A stretch of 52,253 nucleotides of DNA, taken from contig JAAVHB010000054.1 of NCBI GenBank assembly GCA_014799955.1, forward strand, positions 1 through 52,253, written 5' to 3'. How positions within the stretch are numbered: the first letter of the stretch is position 1; every line of letters begins with the position of its first letter. The position numbers and the translations under genes were made by a program. The notes below the pieces were generated by a model that saw only the letters and a program-made list of their open reading frames with translations, was not told the DNA's origin and made no database searches. Source of the DNA: Butyrivibrio sp. (GTDB lineage: Bacteria > Bacillota > Clostridia > Lachnospirales > Lachnospiraceae). Of this stretch, positions 7,037 through 52,253 are shown one piece after another.

Positions 7037-8701
7037 CTACTTTATTTCCAAAACTGCGCCCTTGTCCGCCGACGTTACCATTTTGGCATATCGCGCAAGA
7101 TAGCCCGTCGTTACCTTCGGCTCTCTGGGCTGCCATTTTGCCCTGCGCTCCTCGAGCGTCTTTTCGTCAAGCTTTACGTTTATCGTATTGGCAGGTATAT
7201 CAATGCTTATGATGTCGCCCTCCTCAATGAGCGCGATAGGACCGCCTACTGCCGCCTCGGGTGAAACATGCCCGATTGACGCGCCTCTTGACGCACCGGA
7301 GAAGCGTCCGTCCGTTATAAGCGCAACGCTTGAGCCAAGCCCCATACCCGCAATAGCTGAGGTGGGATTAAGCATCTCCCTCATACCGGGACCGCCCTTG
7401 GGTCCTTCATATCTTATTACAACCACGTCTCCCGATACGATTTTGCCGCCCTTTATCGCGTCAATAGCATCCTCCTCACAGTCAAATACTCTCGCGGGTC
7501 CTTCATGCACAAGCATCTCCTGCACTACCGCCGAGCGTTTTACAACGCAGGAATCGGGAGCTATGTTGCCGCGCAGAACCGCAATTCCGCCTGTTTCGCT
7601 GTAGGGATTTTCTATCGGTCTTATGACCTCGGTATTTTTATTTATGCAACCCTTGATATTTTCACCCACGGTTTCACCCGTCGCAGTTATTAAGTCAAGA
7701 TTTAACAAATTTTTCTTGGAAAGCTCGTTCATGACCGCGTAAATGCCGCCCGCCTCGTTAAGCTCTTCCATATAGGTATGTCCTGCCGGAGCAAGATGAC
7801 AGAGATTCGGCGTTCTCGCGCTTATCTCATTCGCAATATCAAGATTGAGCGAAACTCCAGCCTCCCTCGCGATTGCGGGAAGGTGAAGCATCGTATTTGT
7901 AGAGCAGCCAAGCGCCATGTCAACCGTAAGGGCGTTCATGAACGCCTTCTCGGTCATGATGTCAAGGGGTCTGATATTTTTTTCAAGAAGCTCCATAACC
8001 TTCATGCCCGCATGCTTCGCAAGCTTGATTCTGTCCGAATAAACGGCGGGAATCGTGCCGTTGCCCTTAAGTCCCATACCGATTGCCTCGGTAAGGCAGT
8101 TCATGCTGTTAGCGGTGTACATTCCCGAGCAGGAGCCACAGGTGGGGCAGGCGTTATTCTCGTATTCGTCAAGCTCCTCTGCCGTTATTTTACCCGCGGA
8201 GTACGCTCCTACCGCCTCGAACATACTTGAAAGGCTGGTCTTGCAGCCCTTGACATGGCCCGCAAGCATCGGTCCGCCGCTTACGAATACGGTGGGGACG
8301 TTGATTCTTGCCGCCGCCATAAGAAGCCCCGGCACGTTTTTGTCACAGTTTGGAACCATTACAAGCGCGTCAAACTGGTGTGCCGTCGCAAGGCATTCGG
8401 TGGAATCCGCAATCAAATCTCTGGTAACGAGGGAATATTTCATCCCCACATGTCCCATTGCGATTCCGTCACATACGGCGATTGCCGGAACTACTATCGG
8501 CGTTCCTCCCGCCATTGCTACGCCTAGCTTTACAGCCTCGACAATTTTATCAAGATTCATATGTCCCGGAATGATTTCACTCTGTGAGCTTACAATTCCT
8601 ACAAGCGGCTTTGACAATTCCTCCTTGGTAAGACCGAGAGCGTTGAACAAAGACCTGTGCGGAGCCTGAGCGGCTCCTGCTTTAACCGCATCACTTTTCA
8701 T
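7037..8701 (-). CDS. ilvD: Dihydroxyacid dehydratase
   Basis: A 554-residue IlvD/Edd-family enzyme that dehydrates 2,3-dihydroxy acids to 2-oxo acids in valine and isoleucine synthesis. Cysteines of the iron-sulfur site are in NCDKNVPG and in [16 protein letters not shown], and the C-terminal [11 protein letters not shown] block is complete. ATG 8701 is chosen over an in-frame GTG at 8710 because AAGGTG lies at ideal distance from 8701. It begins 12 bases after leuB and is followed by the family B hairpin and ilvB, so the three form one biosynthetic operon. Confidence 0.96.
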
Positions 8702-10024: not shown

Positions 10025-11854
10025 TTAATTAGCGGGCGCCACATAATCGAATGTAATCTGCAGGGTTTCAACATTGACAAAAGTCGTCTTGTCAATGATA
10101 ACCGGAGACGCATCGGTTAAATCCCCGTCAATGCAGTGCGCGTCCTCGGGCAAATCACCTACCCATTCGTTTATAAGGTTTACCCTCGTGCAGTGCTTGT
10201 CGTCCGAAGCCGTATAAGGCTTGGAGGTAAGCTCATAGGGCTCTCCGTTGAGAAGAATCTCCTTGATGTCGATTGTGTAGCCGGGATATAAATCCTCTCC
10301 GTAAGCGATTGCCAACGCCGAGAAGGTCACGCTTGACGCCTTGCCTCCGTCCGTTTTGGTAAAATCAAGTCCTACCGTATAGGTTCCCGCTCCGTCAATC
10401 TTTACGTCCGACGCTTCAATACCGTTCGAGCAGTCCGAAGGATTGTATTTGTCTCCGACGCTGTAGGACATATTTCCGCCGTTCCACATAATCCACGCAA
10501 TAGGCTCTGCCTCATTGGGGTCGATTGTTTCGGCTTCTCTCTCCTTGGGTGCGTCCTCTATAGCCTTTGCCATTCTCGCGTCAATTTCTGCGAGCATTTC
10601 CGCCTCATCCTTTGCCGCTTCCTTCTCTCTCGTGTGCTCGGCAAAGAACGCCGCAAGCTCGGAATCCGCAATCTTCAAATCCTTTTTGCTGTAAAAATCG
10701 CTTCTGTCCCAAAGTACCGGACACAGATTATACTTGTCGCAGTTATCAATGAAATTGGTAAAATACGCCATGGTATTTTTCTTAAGCTCACCGTCCGATG
10801 TCGGAAGCGCGCCGTATTCTCCGATTATTACGCCGATTCCCTTATCCGTGAATTTGGTGAGCTTGGCAAGCTCCCTGTTCATAGCCTCGTATTCGGATTT
10901 GATTCCCCAGTCGGACTGATTATCGCTTCCGCAATAGCTCCACGGGTCGTAATAGTGCACCGAAACCATCAGCTTTCCCTCTGCCGTATCGGTGGGCATC
11001 ACGAATTTGTCATTGCAGGTATCGGCTATATTGGTGTTAAAGCCCGCTATAAGGAGATACCTTTCGGCGTTGTTGCCGCCCGAAGCCCTTACAATATCCA
11101 CAAAGGTCTGATTTATTTTATTCGTAGTCTCATAGCACTCGGTTTCGGTAAGCGCGCCGCTGTCCGACGCAAGCTTGTTAGAATTGTCGTTAAGACTTCT
11201 TCCGAGCTCCTCGTTCGCGGACTCGAAAATAAGATGCTCGTCGTAATCCTTGTATTTATCCGCAATCTGCGTCCACATTTCAGTGTACATCTTCATTGCG
11301 GTATCTCTTGTTTCCTGTGTTGCGGAGCCGAACATTCCCCACCAGCCGCCGTCCCAGTGGTCGTTGACGATTACGTACATATCCGCCTCTATAGCCCATT
11401 CGATAAGCTGTCCCACACGGTCAAGATACGCGTCGCCGATCTTGTAATCACCTTTTTCGTAATTCATGGCGTTTGTCCATGCCACGGGAATACGAATTGT
11501 GTCAAATCCCGCTTTTTTCATTCCCTGAATCATCTCTTTGGTGGTTTCGGGCTGTCCCCACGAGGTTTCGTAAAGCTTAACGGCAAGCTCAGTTCCTTTA
11601 TCGCGCGCGCCGTATGCCTCCATGGTGTTTCCGAGATTTATTCCGTTGCCCATCTTTTTGACAAAATCGAGCGAAGTTGCCTTGTCGCCGCCTGCATTTG
11701 CGTCATCCGTTGCACCCTCCGTTCCGGTATCGGTCTGTTTATCCGCCGGATTCTCCGACGAATTTCCTGTCTTTCCGCACGCCGCTGCCGAAAACGCCAT
11801 GCCGAAAACCAACGACAGCGAAAGAGCTGCCGCCAAAAGCTTTTTGATTTTCAT
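10025..11854 (-). CDS. Lipoprotein GH5 endoglucanase-like glycanase with C-terminal carbohydrate-binding-type domain
   Basis: A 609-residue exported lipoprotein: hydrophobic signal with lipobox SAAAC (Cys26), then an acidic Thr/Gly/Asp linker to about residue 60. The catalytic domain (about 60-390) is glycoside hydrolase family 5: GINLGNTMEAYG opening, acid/base Glu215 in the ESANEE block, HYYDPW block and nucleophile Glu346 in IIGEYG. A charged linker rich in Glu/Ala (about 395-450) leads to a beta-rich domain (about 455-609) that resembles a carbohydrate-binding module. The likely substrate is beta-1,4-glucan or a related hemicellulose. ATG 11854 follows an ideal AGGAGGT site. The gene stands alone. 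Confidence 0.88.
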   Translation of the reverse strand: MKIKKLLAAALSLSLVFGMAFSAAACGKTGNSSENPADKQTDTGTEGATDDANAGGDKATSLDFVKKMGNGINLGNTMEAYGARDKGTELAVKLYETSWGQPETTKEMIQGMKKAGFDTIRIPVAWTNAMNYEKGDYKIGDAYLDRVGQLIEWAIEADMYVIVNDHWDGGWWGMFGSATQETRDTAMKMYTEMWTQIADKYKDYDEHLIFESANEELGRSLNDNSNKLASDSGALTETECYETTNKINQTFVDIVRASGGNNAERYLLIAGFNTNIADTCNDKFVMPTDTAEGKLMVSVHYYDPWSYCGSDNQSDWGIKSEYEAMNRELAKLTKFTDKGIGVIIGEYGALPTSDGELKKNTMAYFTNFIDNCDKYNLCPVLWDRSDFYSKKDLKIADSELAAFFAEHTREKEAAKDEAEMLAEIDARMAKAIEDAPKEREAETIDPNEAEPIAWIMWNGGNMSYSVGDKYNPSDCSNGIEASDVKIDGAGTYTVGLDFTKTDGGKASSVTFSALAIAYGEDLYPGYTIDIKEILLNGEPYELTSKPYTASDDKHCTRVNLINEWVGDLPEDAHCIDGDLTDASPVIIDKTTFVNVETLQITFDYVAPAN

Positions 11855-29321: not shown

Positions 29322-29349
29322 AAAAATACCCCGTCCCAAAGGGACGAGG
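29322..29349 (-). terminator. Regulated terminator of the pheST T-box
   Basis: Stem CCTCGTCCC/GGGACGGGG with a TTT loop (one G-T pair), followed on the minus strand by TATTTTTA. It is mutually exclusive with the antiterminator that uses the upstream GGTACCGCG sequence. Confidence 0.85.
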
Positions 29350-29574
29350 TTAATCGCGGTACCACCCTGATTCCGGCTTGCTATAAGCCGACACTCCATG
29401 CGTAACGTGCATTAACGTCGGTCTCTACTCGCTTGCGCTTTAAAAACCGCGGCTCCGGCATGAAATTCATCAAAGGACTTAACCCAAAGAGGCTTACAGC
29501 CGACGACCTCTTCTCTCTGCCGGTACTTCCGTTGACTACTGTGTGCCTTCACAGCCTTTATCAAAACTTGTTAT
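29322..29574 (-). promoter_or_regulatory. T-box leader, phenylalanine-specific
   Basis: The minus-strand leader upstream of pheS contains the diagnostic T-box/antiterminator sequence GGTGGTACCGCG (29366-29355), just before a competing terminator (29349-29329). About 85 bases further upstream (minus-strand sense) a stem I-like segment pairs ACCGGCA with TGCCGG and presents UUC in the loop GAATTTCATG, a phenylalanine specifier codon. Uncharged tRNA-Phe should stabilise the antiterminator and switch on pheST. Stem I boundaries are approximate. Confidence 0.9.
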
Positions 29575-47554: not shown

Positions 47555-47917
47555 ATGCCTTATTATCACAATCAACGCGCTTTCGGCGGAAGAAACACAG
47601 GATGCCAGGGTCAGAGGCCGGACGCCTCGGACCGTAATAATCAGCCGCCCTGCCGGACGGCTCCCACTCCATGCCCCGCGCAGCCGTCATGCTCCGCCGA
47701 CATAAATCCGCGCACACAGGTTCAGTCCCGTCCATCGTGTCAGGTAAGCAACTCCTGCGGCGACAACACGAACCCCTGCTGCTCTCTCGCGGTGGCGGGC
47801 GTTGTCAACCAGAAACCCGAAAGTCCTACCTATGATGTGGAACGTGCCCTTATCGTCGGCACGATTTACATTGAGCTTGACAAACCTTTTCTCGGGGAAG
47901 GAGGCTGCAGACGATGA
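47555..47917 (+). CDS. cotJA: Spore coat-associated protein CotJA
   Basis: A 120-residue protein. The first 75 residues are low-complexity, rich in Pro, Cys, Gln, Ser and Asn (nine cysteines), suited to coat cross-linking. The C-terminal block AVAGVVNQKPESPTYDVERA and GTIYIELDKPFLG matches the CotJA family (PF11007), slightly longer than Bacillus CotJA. An AAGGAA site precedes the ATG. It overlaps cotJB by 4 bases in the conserved cotJA-B-C order; the family is expressed in the mother cell and deposited in the inner coat. Confidence 0.88.
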   Translation: MPYYHNQRAFGGRNTGCQGQRPDASDRNNQPPCRTAPTPCPAQPSCSADINPRTQVQSRPSCQVSNSCGDNTNPCCSLAVAGVVNQKPESPTYDVERALIVGTIYIELDKPFLGEGGCRR

Positions 47918-48186
47918 ACCAGCAGAATCAGCAGCTCACAAGATGCGCTCTCATGCGCAAGATAACGGAATATTTTTTCGCACTGTACGATTTATCGCTT
48001 TATCTTGACACTCATCCCGACGACTGCCATGCGCTTTCAAATTACCACAGCCTTAACGAGCAGTACAAAAAGTATTACGGCGAATATATCAAAGCCTACG
48101 GTCCTATTGCGTTTACCGACGTCAAGTCCGAGGATTACTGGACATGGGTTGCCGAAGAATGGCCTTGGGAAGGAGGAATGGCATAA
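47914..48186 (+). CDS. cotJB: Spore coat protein CotJB
   Basis: A 90-residue protein matching the CotJB family (PF12652): short helices with FFALYDLSLYLDTHPDD, the central HSLNEQYKKYYGEYIKAYGP and the ending WVAEEWPWEGGM. Length is typical. Its stop codon shares one base with the cotJC start (TAATG), so the three genes are translationally coupled. Confidence 0.93.
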   Translation: MNQQNQQLTRCALMRKITEYFFALYDLSLYLDTHPDDCHALSNYHSLNEQYKKYYGEYIKAYGPIAFTDVKSEDYWTWVAEEWPWEGGMA

Positions 48187-48278
48187 TGTGGGTATATGAA
48201 AAAAGACTTGAATTTCCCGTCAACATCAAAAATCCCGACCCGAAGGCTGCTATGATTATCATCAGCCAGTACGGAGGA
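48186..48278 (+). CDS. cotJC: cotJC, 5' fragment (codons 1-31), split by an inserted element
   Basis: The frame starts at ATG 48186 and encodes MWVYEKRLEFPVNIKNPDPK, then residues 21-31 ending in SQYGG, the typical CotJC N-terminus. Similarity stops after Gly31 (48278); beyond it the frame enters foreign sequence and ends at 48344. The family continues QYGG-PDGE, and PDGE is the exact beginning of homology at 51443. Rejoining 48278 to 51443 keeps frame and gives a 140-residue protein. In the unrearranged chromosome the fragment would yield a useless 52-residue peptide. Confidence 0.9.
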
Positions 48279-48299
48279 GCGTTATGCCGTAAGGTATAC
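48271..48299 (+). other. attL-like junction of the cotJC element
   Basis: cotJC sequence ACGGAGGA is joined to the element arm CGTTATGCCGTAAGGTATAC (48280-48299). The arm is the inverse complement, 19 of 20 bases, of the arm at 51418-51437. The shared trinucleotide GGA (48276-48278) contains the probable 2-bp crossover. Confidence 0.8.
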
Positions 48300-48301
48300 G
48301 G

Positions 48302-49276
48302 CTACTTTTTCAGCGCCTCCGTATCAACCCAGAAGCTCACATGACCCGCCGCTCCTGTCCTTGCCTCGGTGTTGGTCATTCTGACTCGCCCGTTTACGAT
48401 GTCAGAGGACCATACGTAATACAGTCCCGTACGGTTGCCGATGCTTTTTCCGGTTTCGCTATCATACACGGCGGCGTTTTTCAGCACATATGCCTGCCCG
48501 GCTTTTATAACCTGTGCTTCCTTGCCTTCTGTAAGCCCTACGTCCGCAATTTTTATCCAGCAGGTCACCTGCCCCGCCTTTCCTACTCTGTCAGCCGTAT
48601 TTGTAATCCTTATACGTCCGTTTATAACCGTATTGTCCCAGAGAAAATATTTCCCCGTCTTTTTGTCATAAGCCGCCGCAACGCTTTCGGTTTTATAACA
48701 GGGCGTAGCGTCAAGCCTTATTTCCAGTCCCGTCCTTATTTCACCCTGGGACGGTTTTTCCTCCTCCTTGCTTGCAAACTCGGTTCCGCAGTATATAAAA
48801 CCCTTAAACGGTCTTGTCGGAGCATAATAATATCCTGACGCCTTGGTTAATGTTTCCAGAAAAAACACGCTGCCGCCGTAGGCGCTGTTTGATGTGACGA
48901 TGTCGCCGTTTGCCTTTATTTCCTCCACAACCGAAATATGCCCGGCACCGTTGTCCGTAACGCCAAAACAGCATACTGCGCCGAGCTTCGGTGTCTGACC
49001 TGTTTCAAGTCCCGCTGCCGCGGCTTTGCCGTACCACGTCCGCGCGTCTCCTCCGATAAGCCCTTCAAAGGTTCTTCCCGTCATTTCCATAAGCCTTCCG
49101 TATGTGTACGCAGTACAGTTCGGCATCATCAGTGTACGGTTTCCGTCTTTGTCCTTATACGCGTAAAACGGATTTTTATCGCTGTAATAATTTTTGTTGC
49201 TCCTGTCTGGCGCCGTAAATCTCGGAGTGAATAACTCCGCTTTATCCGTGCTGTTTTTGCTGACATTTGCTGCCAT
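48302..49276 (-). CDS. Endolysin: CHAP peptidase/amidase with two tandem C-terminal repeats
   Basis: A 324-residue protein without a signal peptide. The CHAP domain (about 35-165) has the catalytic Cys54 in MMPNCTAY, His113 in AGHISVVEE and Asn130 in TSNSAYGG. Two repeats of about 65 residues follow (about 183-250 and 256-324), each ending in NGRxRxTNTxxRxGxAGxVxxW; they are probably SH3-like wall-binding modules. The family cuts peptidoglycan cross-bridges or the stem amide and needs a holin to cross the membrane. It is the last gene of the element's minus-strand cassette, stopping 3 bases from the attachment arm. Confidence 0.87.
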   Translation of the reverse strand: MAANVSKNSTDKAELFTPRFTAPDRSNKNYYSDKNPFYAYKDKDGNRTLMMPNCTAYTYGRLMEMTGRTFEGLIGGDARTWYGKAAAAGLETGQTPKLGAVCCFGVTDNGAGHISVVEEIKANGDIVTSNSAYGGSVFFLETLTKASGYYYAPTRPFKGFIYCGTEFASKEEEKPSQGEIRTGLEIRLDATPCYKTESVAAAYDKKTGKYFLWDNTVINGRIRITNTADRVGKAGQVTCWIKIADVGLTEGKEAQVIKAGQAYVLKNAAVYDSETGKSIGNRTGLYYVWSSDIVNGRVRMTNTEARTGAAGHVSFWVDTEALKK

Positions 49277-49287
49277 ATAAGCTCTCC

Positions 49288-49560
49288 TTAATTATTATTT
49301 ATGATTTGATTCGGATCCACCTGCGACCGAAGACCTTCAGGCAGACTCCCGATAAGTTTGATTTTGTTTAACGCCTTTGTTTTGGCGGCATAGGTTCCGG
49401 TCACACCCGTAACCTCCACCCAGACTATACCTATAATTACCATCAGATTGCCGATGTCGTAGCCCAGAGCGTCCCTGATTACTGCCCATACGGTGCATAT
49501 AATCGCAACCATCACCGAAACAGCCACAACAATTTTGTTGAATTCCACTTTTTCCACCAT
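49288..49560 (-). CDS. Holin-like small membrane protein
   Basis: A 90-residue protein with two membrane segments (about 9-29 and 38-57) separated by a short charged turn, and a hydrophilic, basic then polar C-terminal tail. Size, topology and position 11 bases before the endolysin gene are those of a phage holin, which would release the endolysin. No specific family motif was recognised, so this is a contextual call. AGGAGG precedes the start, and a family B hairpin stands in its leader. Confidence 0.72.
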   Translation of the reverse strand: MVEKVEFNKIVVAVSVMVAIICTVWAVIRDALGYDIGNLMVIIGIVWVEVTGVTGTYAAKTKALNKIKLIGSLPEGLRSQVDPNQIINNN

Positions 49561-49581
49561 ATTTTTCCTCCTTTAACATTC

Positions 49582-49605
49582 TGCCGAACGGAACTTTCAT
49601 TTAAC
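49582..49605 (-). repeat. Partial family B repeat before the holin gene
   Basis: GTTCCGTTCGGC is followed by AGAATGTTAAAGGAGG on the minus strand: one half of the hairpin plus the usual ribosome-site tail. It lies 2 bases from the complete copy. Confidence 0.5.
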
Positions 49606-49607
49606 TT

Positions 49608-49636
49608 TCCCGCGAGGCGCTGTGCGCCGAACGGGA
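49608..49636 (-). repeat. Family B hairpin repeat, copy 3 (inside the cotJC element)
   Basis: Outer stem TCCCG/CGGGA, the same 3x3 internal loop, inner stem GGCGC/GCGCC, 3-base loop. It lies in the spacer between the 54-residue gene and the holin gene. Finding a host-wide repeat inside the element suggests the element has resided in this lineage for some time or exchanges sequence with it. Confidence 0.75.
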
Positions 49637-49639
49637 CTT

Positions 49640-49804
49640 TCATTTAATCTTGGTTTCCGATTTCCTTTCCTTCTCTGCTTCATATCCAAGCGCCGTAAGC
49701 GCCTGACGGTTAAGTCCCCTTGATATTCGGTCTCTGTCGTCCTCACAAAGTCCGCTCCATTCCTTTGTTTCGCCTTTTTCTATAACAAAAACTCTTACCG
49801 TCAT
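49640..49804 (-). CDS. Small protein of the lysis cassette (54 residues), function unknown
   Basis: ATG 49804 opens a 54-codon frame encoding MTVRVFVIEKGETKEWSGLC and a charged helical remainder rich in Glu, Lys and Arg. AGGTG stands 5 bases before the start. The beta-strand beginning followed by a charged helix looks folded and soluble. It is the first gene of the holin-endolysin cassette, a position where many phages carry small uncharacterised proteins. No family was recognised. Confidence 0.55.
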   Translation of the reverse strand: MTVRVFVIEKGETKEWSGLCEDDRDRISRGLNRQALTALGYEAEKERKSETKIK

Positions 49805-49826
49805 ACCAACACCTGCAGCCTCTGTT

Positions 49827-49852
49827 GATATATGCTATTCCTCAAAGCCCGT
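49827..49852 (-). promoter_or_regulatory. Candidate sigma-K-like promoter of the lysis cassette
   Basis: On the minus strand AC (49852-49851), 16 bases, CATATATCA (from 49834) resembles the sigma-K consensus AC-N16/17-CATANNNTA with one mismatch. The expected transcript would begin about 15 bases before ATG 49804. The short motif could occur by chance. On the opposite strand TTGACA (49855-49860) with TAGAAG 17 bases on is a weak candidate for the recombinase. Confidence 0.3.
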
Positions 49853-49946
49853 CCTTGACAACTTCTTTTTCTCCCCATAGAAGCAAACAAATATTTGCGG
49901 TTATTTTTACGGATTTACGAAAGTAAAATTTACGGGAGGCGATATT

Positions 49947-51416
49947 ATGGCGGAAGATACCGTAAAAAAAAGAGCCTGCGCATATGTGCGCGTATCGACA
50001 GACAGGCAGGAGGAGCTTTCCCCGGACGCGCAAAAGCGACTCATATCGGATTACTGTAAAAAAAACAACATTCTTATAAAAGACGAGCATTTTTTTATCG
50101 AAAACGGAATCTCGGGCAAAAAAGCAGACAAGCGCCCTCTTTTTCAGCATATGATTGCGGCGGCAAAATCAAAGGAGCATCCCTTTGACATAATTCTGGT
50201 ATGGAAATTCAGCCGCTTTGCCAGAAACCAGGAGGAATCTATAGTTTACAAAACCATGCTTCAAAGAGCGGGCGTTGAGGTCGTAAGCATATCGGAGCCG
50301 TCCGTAGACGGTCCGTTCGGCTCCCTGATAGAGCGCATAATTGAGTGGATGGACGAATACTACTCCATCCGTCTCTCCGGCGAGGTCATGCGCGGCATGA
50401 CCGAAAAGGCTCTGCGAGGCGGCTACCAGTCCGCCATGCCCATGGGCTATAGAATGAACAAGGAAACGGGAATCCCCGAAATATACGAGCCAGAGGCGGA
50501 AATTATCCGGCTTATTTTCGACGGTTTCATAAACTCCGGCAAATCCTTCCTTGAAATCGCCAGAAGCATGAACGCTCTCGGCTTTCGCACACGCCGCGGC
50601 TCCCCCTTTGAGCGCCGCACGGTAATGTACATTTTGCAGAATCCCTTCTATTGCGGTCTGGTCCGCTGGAACCGCCAAAACCGTGAAAACCGCGCCATAA
50701 AGGAGCGTTCCGAATGGATTACGGCGCAGGGCGCGCACGAGCCCATCATCGACAAAGCCGACTTTGAGCGCGCGCAGAATTTAATTTCTTTGCGCGCGCG
50801 CCCCCGCAAATCCAGAGGCACGGCAGGAATCAAGCACTGGCTGTCCGGCATCGTAAAATGCTCCTCCTGCGGCAAATCCCTTATCGCCAACGCTGCGTGG
50901 AAGGGGCGTCCGGCAAGCTTTCAGTGCGGCGGCTACAACAAGGGACTCTGCCCGCAAAGCCATTTTGTCAGAACCGATGCTCTTGAGCAGGCGGTTTACG
51001 AGGGCTTCCGTCAGATTATTTCGTCCGAAAATATCATATTTGAGCCAAAACGCACCGCCCCGCGCCGCGACACAGGAGCTCTTGAAATCTTACTCTCCCA
51101 AATCAAAGCCAAGGAAGGGCGCATACGGCAGGCATACCTTAACGGAATCGACACTCTGGACGAATACGGCAAAAACAAAGCCCGGCTCTCAAAGGAGCGG
51201 GCCGAAGCTGAAAAGCTTCTGAACGGACAAAAAAACACCACCGACAATGACGTTCAAACAAAAATGCTTGCCAAGGTTCGCGGAGTTTATGAAATCATAA
51301 CCGACGAATCACTTGACAAGCTTATTCGCTCCAATGCCGTACGCTCGGTGGTTGACCGCTGCGTATATGACAAGGAAAAGGATTCACTTGAAATATATTT
51401 TTATCTCAGTCCCTGA
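49947..51416 (+). CDS. Large serine recombinase of the cotJC element
   Basis: A 489-residue site-specific recombinase. The catalytic domain (1-150) has the nucleophile Ser17 in YVRVSTDRQ and the arginines of KFSRFARN; the Recombinase domain (about 160-290) contains MPMGYRMN and the NPFYCGLVRWN block; a zinc ribbon follows (Cys305, Cys308, Cys327, Cys335); a coiled coil is predicted at about 370-430 as in phage integrases and SpoIVCA. All key residues are present and the frame is open. GGGAGG is the ribosome site. The stop codon lies 2 bases from the attR arm. It should excise the element and restore cotJC. Confidence 0.95.
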   Translation: MAEDTVKKRACAYVRVSTDRQEELSPDAQKRLISDYCKKNNILIKDEHFFIENGISGKKADKRPLFQHMIAAAKSKEHPFDIILVWKFSRFARNQEESIVYKTMLQRAGVEVVSISEPSVDGPFGSLIERIIEWMDEYYSIRLSGEVMRGMTEKALRGGYQSAMPMGYRMNKETGIPEIYEPEAEIIRLIFDGFINSGKSFLEIARSMNALGFRTRRGSPFERRTVMYILQNPFYCGLVRWNRQNRENRAIKERSEWITAQGAHEPIIDKADFERAQNLISLRARPRKSRGTAGIKHWLSGIVKCSSCGKSLIANAAWKGRPASFQCGGYNKGLCPQSHFVRTDALEQAVYEGFRQIISSENIIFEPKRTAPRRDTGALEILLSQIKAKEGRIRQAYLNGIDTLDEYGKNKARLSKERAEAEKLLNGQKNTTDNDVQTKMLAKVRGVYEIITDESLDKLIRSNAVRSVVDRCVYDKEKDSLEIYFYLSP

Positions 51417-51417
51417 T

Positions 51418-51442
51418 GTATACCTTACGGCACAACGGCGGA
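51418..51442 (+). other. attR-like junction of the cotJC element
   Basis: The element arm GTATACCTTACGGCACAACG (51418-51437) is followed by GCGGA and then cotJC sequence CCTGACGGC. In the excised circle this arm, GCGGAG and the arm from 48280-48299 would form a 46-bp dyad centred on GG, the expected form of attP for a large serine recombinase. Confidence 0.8.
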
Positions 51443-51772
51443 CCTGACGGCGAAGCCGCCGCAAGTATGCGCTACCTTTCTCAGCGCTACTCGATGCCCG
51501 ACAAAAGGGTGGCAGGGCTTCTTACGGATATCGGAACCGAAGAGTTGGCACATTTCGAGATTATCGGCGCAATGGTTCACCAGCTCACTCGTAACCTAAC
51601 GCCGGATCAGATTGAGAAATCCGGTTTTGCCCCGTACTACACCGACCATACGCTCGGCGTATGGCCGCAGGCCGCAGGAGGTATCCCCTTCAACGCCTGT
51701 GAGTTCCAGGTGAAGGGCGATCCCATCTGCGACCTTACGGAAGACCTCGCAGCAGACGCTGCGAGCGCATAA
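51443..51772 (+). CDS. cotJC: cotJC, 3' fragment (reconstituted codons 32-140), C-terminus short
   Basis: The frame from 51443 encodes 109 residues starting PDGEAAASMRYLSQRYSMPD and containing the ExxH-type metal ligand pair in GTEELAHFEIIG, typical of the manganese-catalase-like CotJC family. An in-frame ATG at 51416 is fortuitous. Family members usually run to about 190 residues, with a second ligand helix after the AAEQKAR motif; here the frame stops at EDLAADAASA. No other frame continues the homology, and a convergent gene ends 7 bases later. Either the 3' end was deleted or this lineage has a short CotJC. Confidence 0.85.
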   Translation, partial: PDGEAAASMRYLSQRYSMPDKRVAGLLTDIGTEELAHFEIIGAMVHQLTRNLTPDQIEKSGFAPYYTDHTLGVWPQAAGGIPFNACEFQVKGDPICDLTEDLAADAASA

Positions 51773-51779
51773 AAGCAAT

Positions 51780-52253
51780 CTAGCGGGGAAGCTCGATGCT
51801 GTTCTCGTGCGTGTTGGCATCGGCGTAAGAAAATACGTCGGAAGTTTCGTTCAATACGTCCTGTACATTAATGAAGCAGTCCAGAAGCTTCGGATTAAAG
51901 ATGCCGCACTCACCGTCCATAATCATTTTTATAGCCACGTCAACAGCGTAGGGCGTCTTGTAAACACGCTTGCTTATAAGCGCGTCGTATACATCAACAA
52001 TGGAAACTATCTGAGCCCAGATAGGAATCTCCTCTCCCCTAAGACCGTCCGGATAACCGTTTCCGTCATAGCGCTCATGGTGATAGCGGCATATATCATA
52101 GCAGTAACGGTAAAAATCGCTGTCATCCTGCTTGAACTTTTCAAGAATCTGGCAACCGTATGTAGTATGCTTCTTGATTACCTCAAACTCGGACGGCGTC
52201 AGCCTTGCGGGCTTTAAAAGTATACTGTCGGGAATCGCGATTTTTCCGATGTC
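51780..52253 (-). CDS. HD-GYP domain phosphodiesterase, C-terminal part (cut by window edge)
   Basis: The minus-strand frame is open from the right edge to TAG at 51782-51780, about 157 residues. It starts inside the HD motif (DIGKIAIPDSILLKPARLT) and contains YHHERYDGNGYPDGL and YDALISKRVYKTPYA, intact HD-GYP landmarks. It is clearly related to the regulator at 35016 but differs at many positions, so it is a paralogue and not a duplicated segment. The upstream receiver or sensor domain is outside the window. It converges on truncated cotJC with 7 bases between stops and no terminator. Confidence 0.9.
   Translation of the reverse strand, partial: DIGKIAIPDSILLKPARLTPSEFEVIKKHTTYGCQILEKFKQDDSDFYRYCYDICRYHHERYDGNGYPDGLRGEEIPIWAQIVSIVDVYDALISKRVYKTPYAVDVAIKMIMDGECGIFNPKLLDCFINVQDVLNETSDVFSYADANTHENSIELPR

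Follow-up and report, generated by a model that had tools for sequence, protein, structure and literature searches.

We found that cotJC, a spore coat gene of a Butyrivibrio species of the Lachnospiraceae, is split by a 3,164-bp skin-like element (E1), which is probably excised by its own serine recombinase, with the gene rebuilt when needed, most likely in the mother cell. The stretch analysed (the window) is contig JAAVHB010000054.1, 52,253 nucleotides long, from a draft assembly (GCA_014799955.1; 2.78 Mb in 137 contigs, 96.4% complete). We refer to its genome as G000 and compared it with four congeners, G001 to G004, giving a genus sample of five genomes; throughout, G denotes a genome, L a retrieved locus and C a contig. 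An initial annotation, made from the letters of the window, had proposed a skin-like, site-specifically inserted element in this coat gene, and empty sites in relatives, a shared insertion and a dyad formed by the ends of E1 all support that proposal.

The cotJ operon of the window begins with cotJA (47555-47917, + strand; Pfam CotJA, E=7e-10) and cotJB (47914-48186, +; Pfam CotJB, E=4e-26). The first cotJC piece follows (48186-48278, +) and comprises codons 1-31, ending in QYGG; it aligns with PF05067 positions 1-32, below cut-off for so short a piece, and was placed by tblastn to the congeners. The second piece (51443-51754, +; PF05067, E=5e-23) runs from PDGE to DLAA, ending where relatives have a further interruption site (site 3). 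The proposed loss of CotJC homology after Gly31 (48278) and its in-frame resumption at PDGE (51443) were confirmed by these Pfam matches together with tblastn, and GGA indeed stands at both junctions (48276-48278 and 51440-51442). E1 occupies 48279-51442 between the two pieces, which lie in order on one strand; its flanks, joined, give in-frame QYGGPDGE and read ...IIISQYGGPDGEAAASMRYLSQRY..., with no stop before an early end at 51772. E1 thus sits inside a sporulation gene whose parts join in frame, as sporulation gene-intervening elements do. Its ends are 20-nt inverted repeats (48280-48299 and 51418-51437, the putative attP half-sites) that are 95% complementary. Put together as attP, they pair as a dyad at 19 of 23 positions, and the centre of this dyad is precisely the shared GG (0 of 3000 shuffles did as well). 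As in other intervening elements, E1 carries its own intact large serine recombinase, the only one in the insert and placed against a junction as first described (489 aa; 49947-51416, +; Resolvase, Recombinase and Zn_ribbon_recom domains; phrog_95 integrase, E=9e-111); its gene ends 26 bp from the right junction. The nearest recombinase with a solved structure was YokA of SPbeta (9dxh, E=2.6e-19), which we take to be the recombinase of the spsM element.

Besides the recombinase, the 3.16-kb insert holds only three likely genes, all on the − strand: a 324-aa CHAP-domain lysin (48302-49276; Pfam CHAP, E=8e-13), an adjoining 90-aa small membrane-type protein that may be a holin (49288-49560; phrog_17876, function unknown) and a 54-aa protein, divergent from the recombinase, that is a candidate recombination directionality factor (49640-49804). 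We propose that the recombinase would insert E1 after cotJC codon 31 and would remove it again, the 54-aa protein most likely acting as directionality factor. Removal would release a 3.16-kb circle and leave QYGG and PDGE joined across the GG core. The cell line would retain the split gene, and the gene would be rebuilt on demand, most likely in the mother cell, whose fate is to die. Other classes of element fitted the insert poorly. Structural and packaging genes of a temperate prophage are absent from it; an SCC cassette (CcrAB/CcrC) was rejected on a CcrB score of 161 bits against a curated cut-off of 900; and a known structured RNA at the junctions, or a self-splicing intron there, was rejected on an Rfam search of the whole window at gathering thresholds, which returned only a T-box at 29337-29561.

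Relatives within the genus provided both empty and occupied sites. In G003 and G001 cotJC is uninterrupted and carries the exact QYGG-P junction that the initial annotation had suggested looking for. The site-1 insertion is common to G002 and G004 (in the latter with the two cotJC pieces on separate contigs), and their recombinases are intact and 80% and 63% identical to that of the window. The G002 element also has the same cargo as E1, with the lysin 75%, the membrane-type protein 82% and the 54-aa protein 58% identical. Between G000 and G002, dN/dS (a simple Nei-Gojobori estimate, rough given the short pieces and high dS) was 0.04, 0 and 0.02 for the CotJC pieces, 0.14 for the recombinase, 0.13 for the lysin and 0.05 for the membrane-type protein, for which dS is saturated. 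These values indicate purifying selection on the recombinase and a stronger constraint on the cotJC pieces. A gene that is split throughout yet selected as a protein would have to be rejoined somewhere in the life cycle, and this persistent selection is our main argument for excision, an indirect one. The dS of the element genes (recombinase 0.93, lysin 1.2, membrane-type protein 2.06) was like or above that of a neighbouring chromosomal GGDEF gene (0.935) and exceeded the values for the cotJ genes (0.35-0.84), which would make the insertion older than the split of the G000 and G002 species. The element has therefore likely, if short of proof, been inherited with its neighbours since before that split. 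The sporulation gene spoIVA scored over its curated cut-off in all five genus genomes, G000 included.

The same architecture was found at site 1 in other genomes. In all 11 site-1 elements with both ends available, the best dyad made by the ends had its centre at the core GG, with 14 to 19 of 23 positions paired, and it was matched by 0 of 3000 shuffles in 10 elements and by 1 of 3000 in L084; the short shared core within an end-made inverted repeat is thus common to all of them, as expected of intervening elements. Their joined flanks read QYGGPDGE in 10 and QYGGPNGE in one. The ten elements lying whole within one retrieved locus measure 3.1 to 6.8 kb, a set that is limited by the 10-kb flanks and so favours small elements, other site-1 spans ranging from 2.7 to 86.7 kb. 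The description of E1 as unusually small did not hold, since small size is common among these ten, and the idea of a unique tiny element was dropped because the halves of another spore gene, sleC, can be only ~2.1 kb apart (L108, L130). A lysin with a small membrane-type protein is present in 4 of the 10 small elements, and the lysins are of three domain types: CHAP in G000 and G002, Amidase_2 in L055 (where a Pfam holin accompanies it) and Amidase_3 in L103. Among the other genes carried are a hybrid histidine kinase in L084 and L086, a Fur protein together with an iron hydrogenase in L095, an exonuclease in L090 and Uma2 in L112. At one locus, L057, the cotJC pieces point away from each other (7892-7984, −, and 11499-11816, +), as an inverted flank or two genes would.

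E1 is not the only interruption of cotJC. The CotJC sequence of the window stops early, after DLAA (51754), and lacks the final 63 residues found in G003, G001 and G004; the same codon is interrupted by another element in G002 and several other genomes. A profile of ten site-3 left ends had its best score among 104,454 window positions at 51755-51780, directly after this codon (score 15.4, compared with 29 to 39 for the ten left ends themselves and below -17 for three empty sites), and 13-17 of the 26 bases are identical to each of the ten. We therefore interpret 51755-51780 as a left end of site-3 type, diverged in sequence, that belongs to a second element; cotJC of the window is thus broken twice. 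The contention that removal of the element restores the reading frame is correct for the flanks of E1, which join in frame, and fails for the whole gene, which the second break and the 63 codons absent from the assembly leave incomplete after E1 removal alone. Full-length CotJC in G000 would need a second excision, at the site-3-type junction. An HD-domain gene (51780-52253, −; Pfam HD_5, E=1e-25) runs off the contig end, inside or beyond the second element.

In G002 the cotJC tail lies at C135:6748-6933, 9 kb further on. The intervening site-3 element (L043, C135:6934-15963) spans 9 kb and contains large ORFs, with a serine recombinase adjoining the cotJC tail; one of the large ORFs resembles DUF262-type defence proteins by eye. 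In seven of seven site-3 elements a dyad was present at the same offset. Site 2 lies between DIG and TEEL and has its own recombinase family: those of G002, L055, L084, L110, L111, L129 and L137 are 70-83% identical to that of L086, and that of L116 is 47% identical. A site-2 dyad at a common offset was found in only three of six loci (L055, L086, L129) and was unclear in L116, L110 and L101. These breaks accumulate in single genomes, with cotJC in four pieces over two contigs in G002 (the order across contigs being inferred) and in three pieces on a single contig in L055. A fourth site is likely near residue 177 in G119, where a serine-recombinase-like ORF adjoins the break. G052 has two copies of the CotJC C-terminal part (C68:14666-15094 and C68:18206-18631, 3.1 kb apart) and its N-terminal part on another contig.

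We surveyed 125 Lachnospiraceae genomes of at least 95% completeness, 83 of them with CotJC. By a fixed rule cotJC was split in 32 of the 83, at site 1 in 15, at site 2 in 14 and at site 3 in 6, with three genomes split at two sites. A hand count gave 34 by adding G100 and G049; we report the rule-based figure, which omits site 3 of G000. Partial matches in seven genomes were left unclassified (G115, G302, G100, G081, G031, G049, G011) for reasons such as a frameshift, contig ends, a single piece or a match overrunning the break. The pieces lay on one contig, on the same strand and in order, 2.7 to 86.7 kb apart, in 14 of the 32 split genomes, and 26 of the 32 had no full-length CotJC match. 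A wider survey of 298 genomes, 189 with CotJC, is represented by its best matches and was left out of the counts.

The relatives of the E1 recombinase also adjoin other spore genes. Among the best 80 of 217 recombinase loci in named genomes, chosen by likeness to the window's recombinase and so not reflecting natural frequencies, the gene near the recombinase was cotJC in 36, sleC in 34, spoVD in 2, pdaB in 1, an M23 peptidase (which we presume to be LytH-like) in 1 and another gene in 6. Cultured strains with such an insertion include Mobilitalea sibirica DSM 26468 (L092, the recombinase next to cotJC piece 1), Roseburia sp. 1XD42-69 (L084, sites 1 and 2 of cotJC) and Lachnotalea glycerini DSM 28816 (L099, pdaB). 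The target piece starts within 300 bp of the recombinase in all but five of 74 loci (L085, L105, L116, L118 and L131; 0.86 to 1.22 kb). We call the 34 SpoIID-like/peptidoglycan-binding pieces sleC because their reference, the N half of L071, fits the structure of the spore cortex-lytic enzyme pre-pro-form (9h68, E=4e-85), and both sleC halves flank the element in order in 10 loci. The spoVD and pdaB labels come from NCBIfam models that match the piece present with scores below the whole-protein cut-offs. On a FastTree phylogeny of 91 recombinases, cotJC and sleC are separated by a single change and the five targets by four; when the 15 'other' rows, some of them truncated by contig ends, are scored as a separate state, the six groups require 15 changes. 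Every branch keeps its target among the assigned rows. No internal stop was found in the matched stretch of any of the 91, in a search that favours intact recombinases. E1 is accordingly no isolated case and belongs to a family-wide pattern with several target genes. Two further recombinase relatives, L122 and L123, have a gene that resembles smpB by eye downstream and no spore gene, perhaps marking a tmRNA-type site.

A profile for the 54-aa protein (three seeds, four build rounds) identified a family member at 50 of the 90 recombinase loci, a count in which near-copies are included. In 48 of the 50 the member is encoded on the strand opposite to the recombinase and upstream of it, in 14 of these within 400 bp and at the farthest 8.6 kb away; many, though not all, of the 40 loci without a member have little upstream sequence. 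The window's protein matched no named family over cut-off in Pfam and other profile searches (DUF6303 was below cut-off), and its size and position fit a role as recombination directionality factor.

The cut points that recur across relatives suggest that these spore genes are rebuilt by cells editing their own DNA. We consider it an even bet that the following wider picture is right. The cotJC gene of Lachnospiraceae would exist in DNA as several pieces, divided at three fixed codons, or perhaps four, by as many as three elements whose recombinases differ, so that two or three independent, precise mother-cell excisions would precede each coat protein. Relatives of one recombinase would have specialised on cotJC, sleC, spoVD, pdaB and the LytH-like gene. 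In some of the smallest elements purifying selection would maintain the recombinase, the 54-aa factor and a lysis module, whose role could be to break open the mother cell and so release the spore.

Several observations weigh against excision of E1 during sporulation. Neither the circle junction nor a rejoined cotJC was found in the G000 assembly, the only match to the latter being the integrated right end, and two attP patterns (exact and strict) gave 0 matches each to viral contigs. A crude scan for SigE/SigK-like consensus sequences found no sporulation promoter before the recombinase or the 54-aa gene; its only match was SigK-like and lay before cotJA. SigK itself exceeded its curated cut-off (298.65 bits) in none of the five genus genomes, with matches of 250-277 bits falling just below. 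The last 63 cotJC codons were not found in the G000 assembly, the contig ending at 52253, so this strain may have no working cotJC. Six of the 32 split genomes have a full-length copy besides the split one. The roughness of the dN/dS estimates counts here too, as does the dS of the cotJ genes, which falls below that of the element genes they flank. Finally, the initial annotation had named close relatives with decayed recombinases at the same insertion as evidence that would speak against it; none was seen within the genus, where G002 and G004 have intact genes, and a more distant genome, G134, has a site-1 element whose recombinase is cut to 278 aa, so that some elements may be stuck.

It is possible, if unlikely, that E1 is a prophage remnant or satellite that excises on its own schedule, by stress, induction or low-level spontaneous events, with cotJC merely a convenient site and its repair in sporulation incidental. 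The lysin and small membrane-type protein of 4 of the 10 small elements resemble a phage lysis module, spans at cotJC sites reach prophage size (86.7 kb), and no sporulation promoter emerged from the crude scan. A C. difficile phage, phi027, adjoins a cotJC homologue in the parts of the reports available to us (PMC11222575, PMC12122855). Set against these points, the 3-kb elements in G000 and G002 lack structural genes and so could hardly spread by themselves, strong selection persists on the cotJC pieces, and the recombinase relatives sit in several spore genes with each target kept along the tree (a single change between cotJC and sleC).

That E1 is instead a dead insertion, a mobile element stuck in a dispensable coat gene in a lineage that has lost cotJC, appears improbable. 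B. subtilis mutants whose spores lack CotJC have no apparent defect, as far as the available text describes them (PMC12122855). The cotJC tail missing from G000 and the truncated recombinase of G134 would also be expected of such an element. The cotJC pieces and the recombinase are nevertheless under purifying selection between G000 and G002, 26 of the 32 split genomes have no full-length copy to fall back on, and 0 of 91 recombinases contain an internal stop, in a search favouring intact ones. Relatives of the recombinase also target sleC and spoVD, neither of which is obviously dispensable for a spore former. A misjoin of contigs, conceivable in a draft of 137 contigs, is rejected as exceedingly improbable because the identical junction recurs in other assemblies (G002, L055, L084, L086, L090, L095, L103, L112 and L119), with a site-1 junction also in the single-contig genome G039.

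Excision in the mother cell would place E1 among known systems, and it is the same kind of element as skin, SPbeta in spsM, vfbin, gin and yin. Cyanobacterial heterocysts offer a parallel in another phylum and another cell type: their interruption elements, sometimes several, likewise lie in genes that serve a terminal cell alone. The comparisons that follow are with the cited papers in the portions available. The gin element of gerE in B. cereus ATCC 10987 is a non-prophage island in a mother-cell sporulation gene that is excised in sporulation; like E1 it has a serine recombinase (GirC) and an inverted repeat around a short core, and it uses an additional factor, GirX, for which the 54-aa protein is the candidate counterpart in E1 (PMC5595907). 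It differs in having 31 genes, three recombinase genes and a 9-bp consensus, compared with 3.16 kb, one recombinase and a GG core in E1, and in lying in a different gene of a different bacterial family; its excision was seen, whereas that of E1 is inferred (PMC5595907). The skin element of sigK in B. subtilis and C. difficile also splits a sporulation gene and encodes a large serine recombinase; as proposed for E1, it uses a small directionality factor (CD1234) and is excised in the mother cell. It interrupts another gene and is prophage-like, whereas cotJC is shared by several different elements (PMC5025042). Excision of SPbeta from spsM in B. subtilis rebuilds a spore-envelope gene (PMC4191935); SPbeta is an active phage in another gene, and its YokA is the closest solved structure to the E1 recombinase. 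The yin element of yabG in C. botulinum has, as E1 does, a mother-cell gene as target, a recombinase and a putative small directionality factor, and was termed unique by its authors, whereas cotJC insertions recur across a bacterial family (PMC10747680). The phi027 prophage of C. difficile, beside the cotJC homologue CDR20291_1465/cotG, resembles E1 in the type of locus; the available portions describe it as adjacent to that gene and not as splitting a gene that is later rebuilt (PMC11222575, PMC12122855).

Earlier accounts of programmed DNA excision in spore formers cover, in the same portions of these papers, a handful of genes in Bacillus and clostridial pathogens (PMC5025042, PMC5595907, PMC10747680, PMC4191935). 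Among the titles and abstract openings listed from the open-licence literature, with subscription papers and preprints outside this scope, we found no account of cotJC or sleC being split and rebuilt, nor of several such elements in one spore gene, and we therefore take E1 to be a new form of a known type of element. If our interpretation is right, programmed excision would be common in a dominant gut family, would affect coat, cortex and germination genes, and could act several times per gene. In that case spore genes that are only split may be annotated in many genomes as broken or missing, which bears on which gut bacteria sporulate. It would also make testable whether mother-cell genes are cost-free refuges for mobile elements or whether the elements are kept as timing switches.

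Some minor features of G000 were also recorded. Its SigK-like sigma factor, whole in the four congeners, ends at two contig ends (C41:2-358 and C42:1-228; L181, L182), with about eight residues missing between the halves and no element visible, as either an insertion or a plain assembly break would leave it. The T-box leader of the window (29337-29561, −) scored 118.6 bits. A repeat of ~40 bp at 49583-49648, between the genes for the 54-aa and membrane-type proteins, has dozens of copies on many G000 contigs, some of them in tandem.

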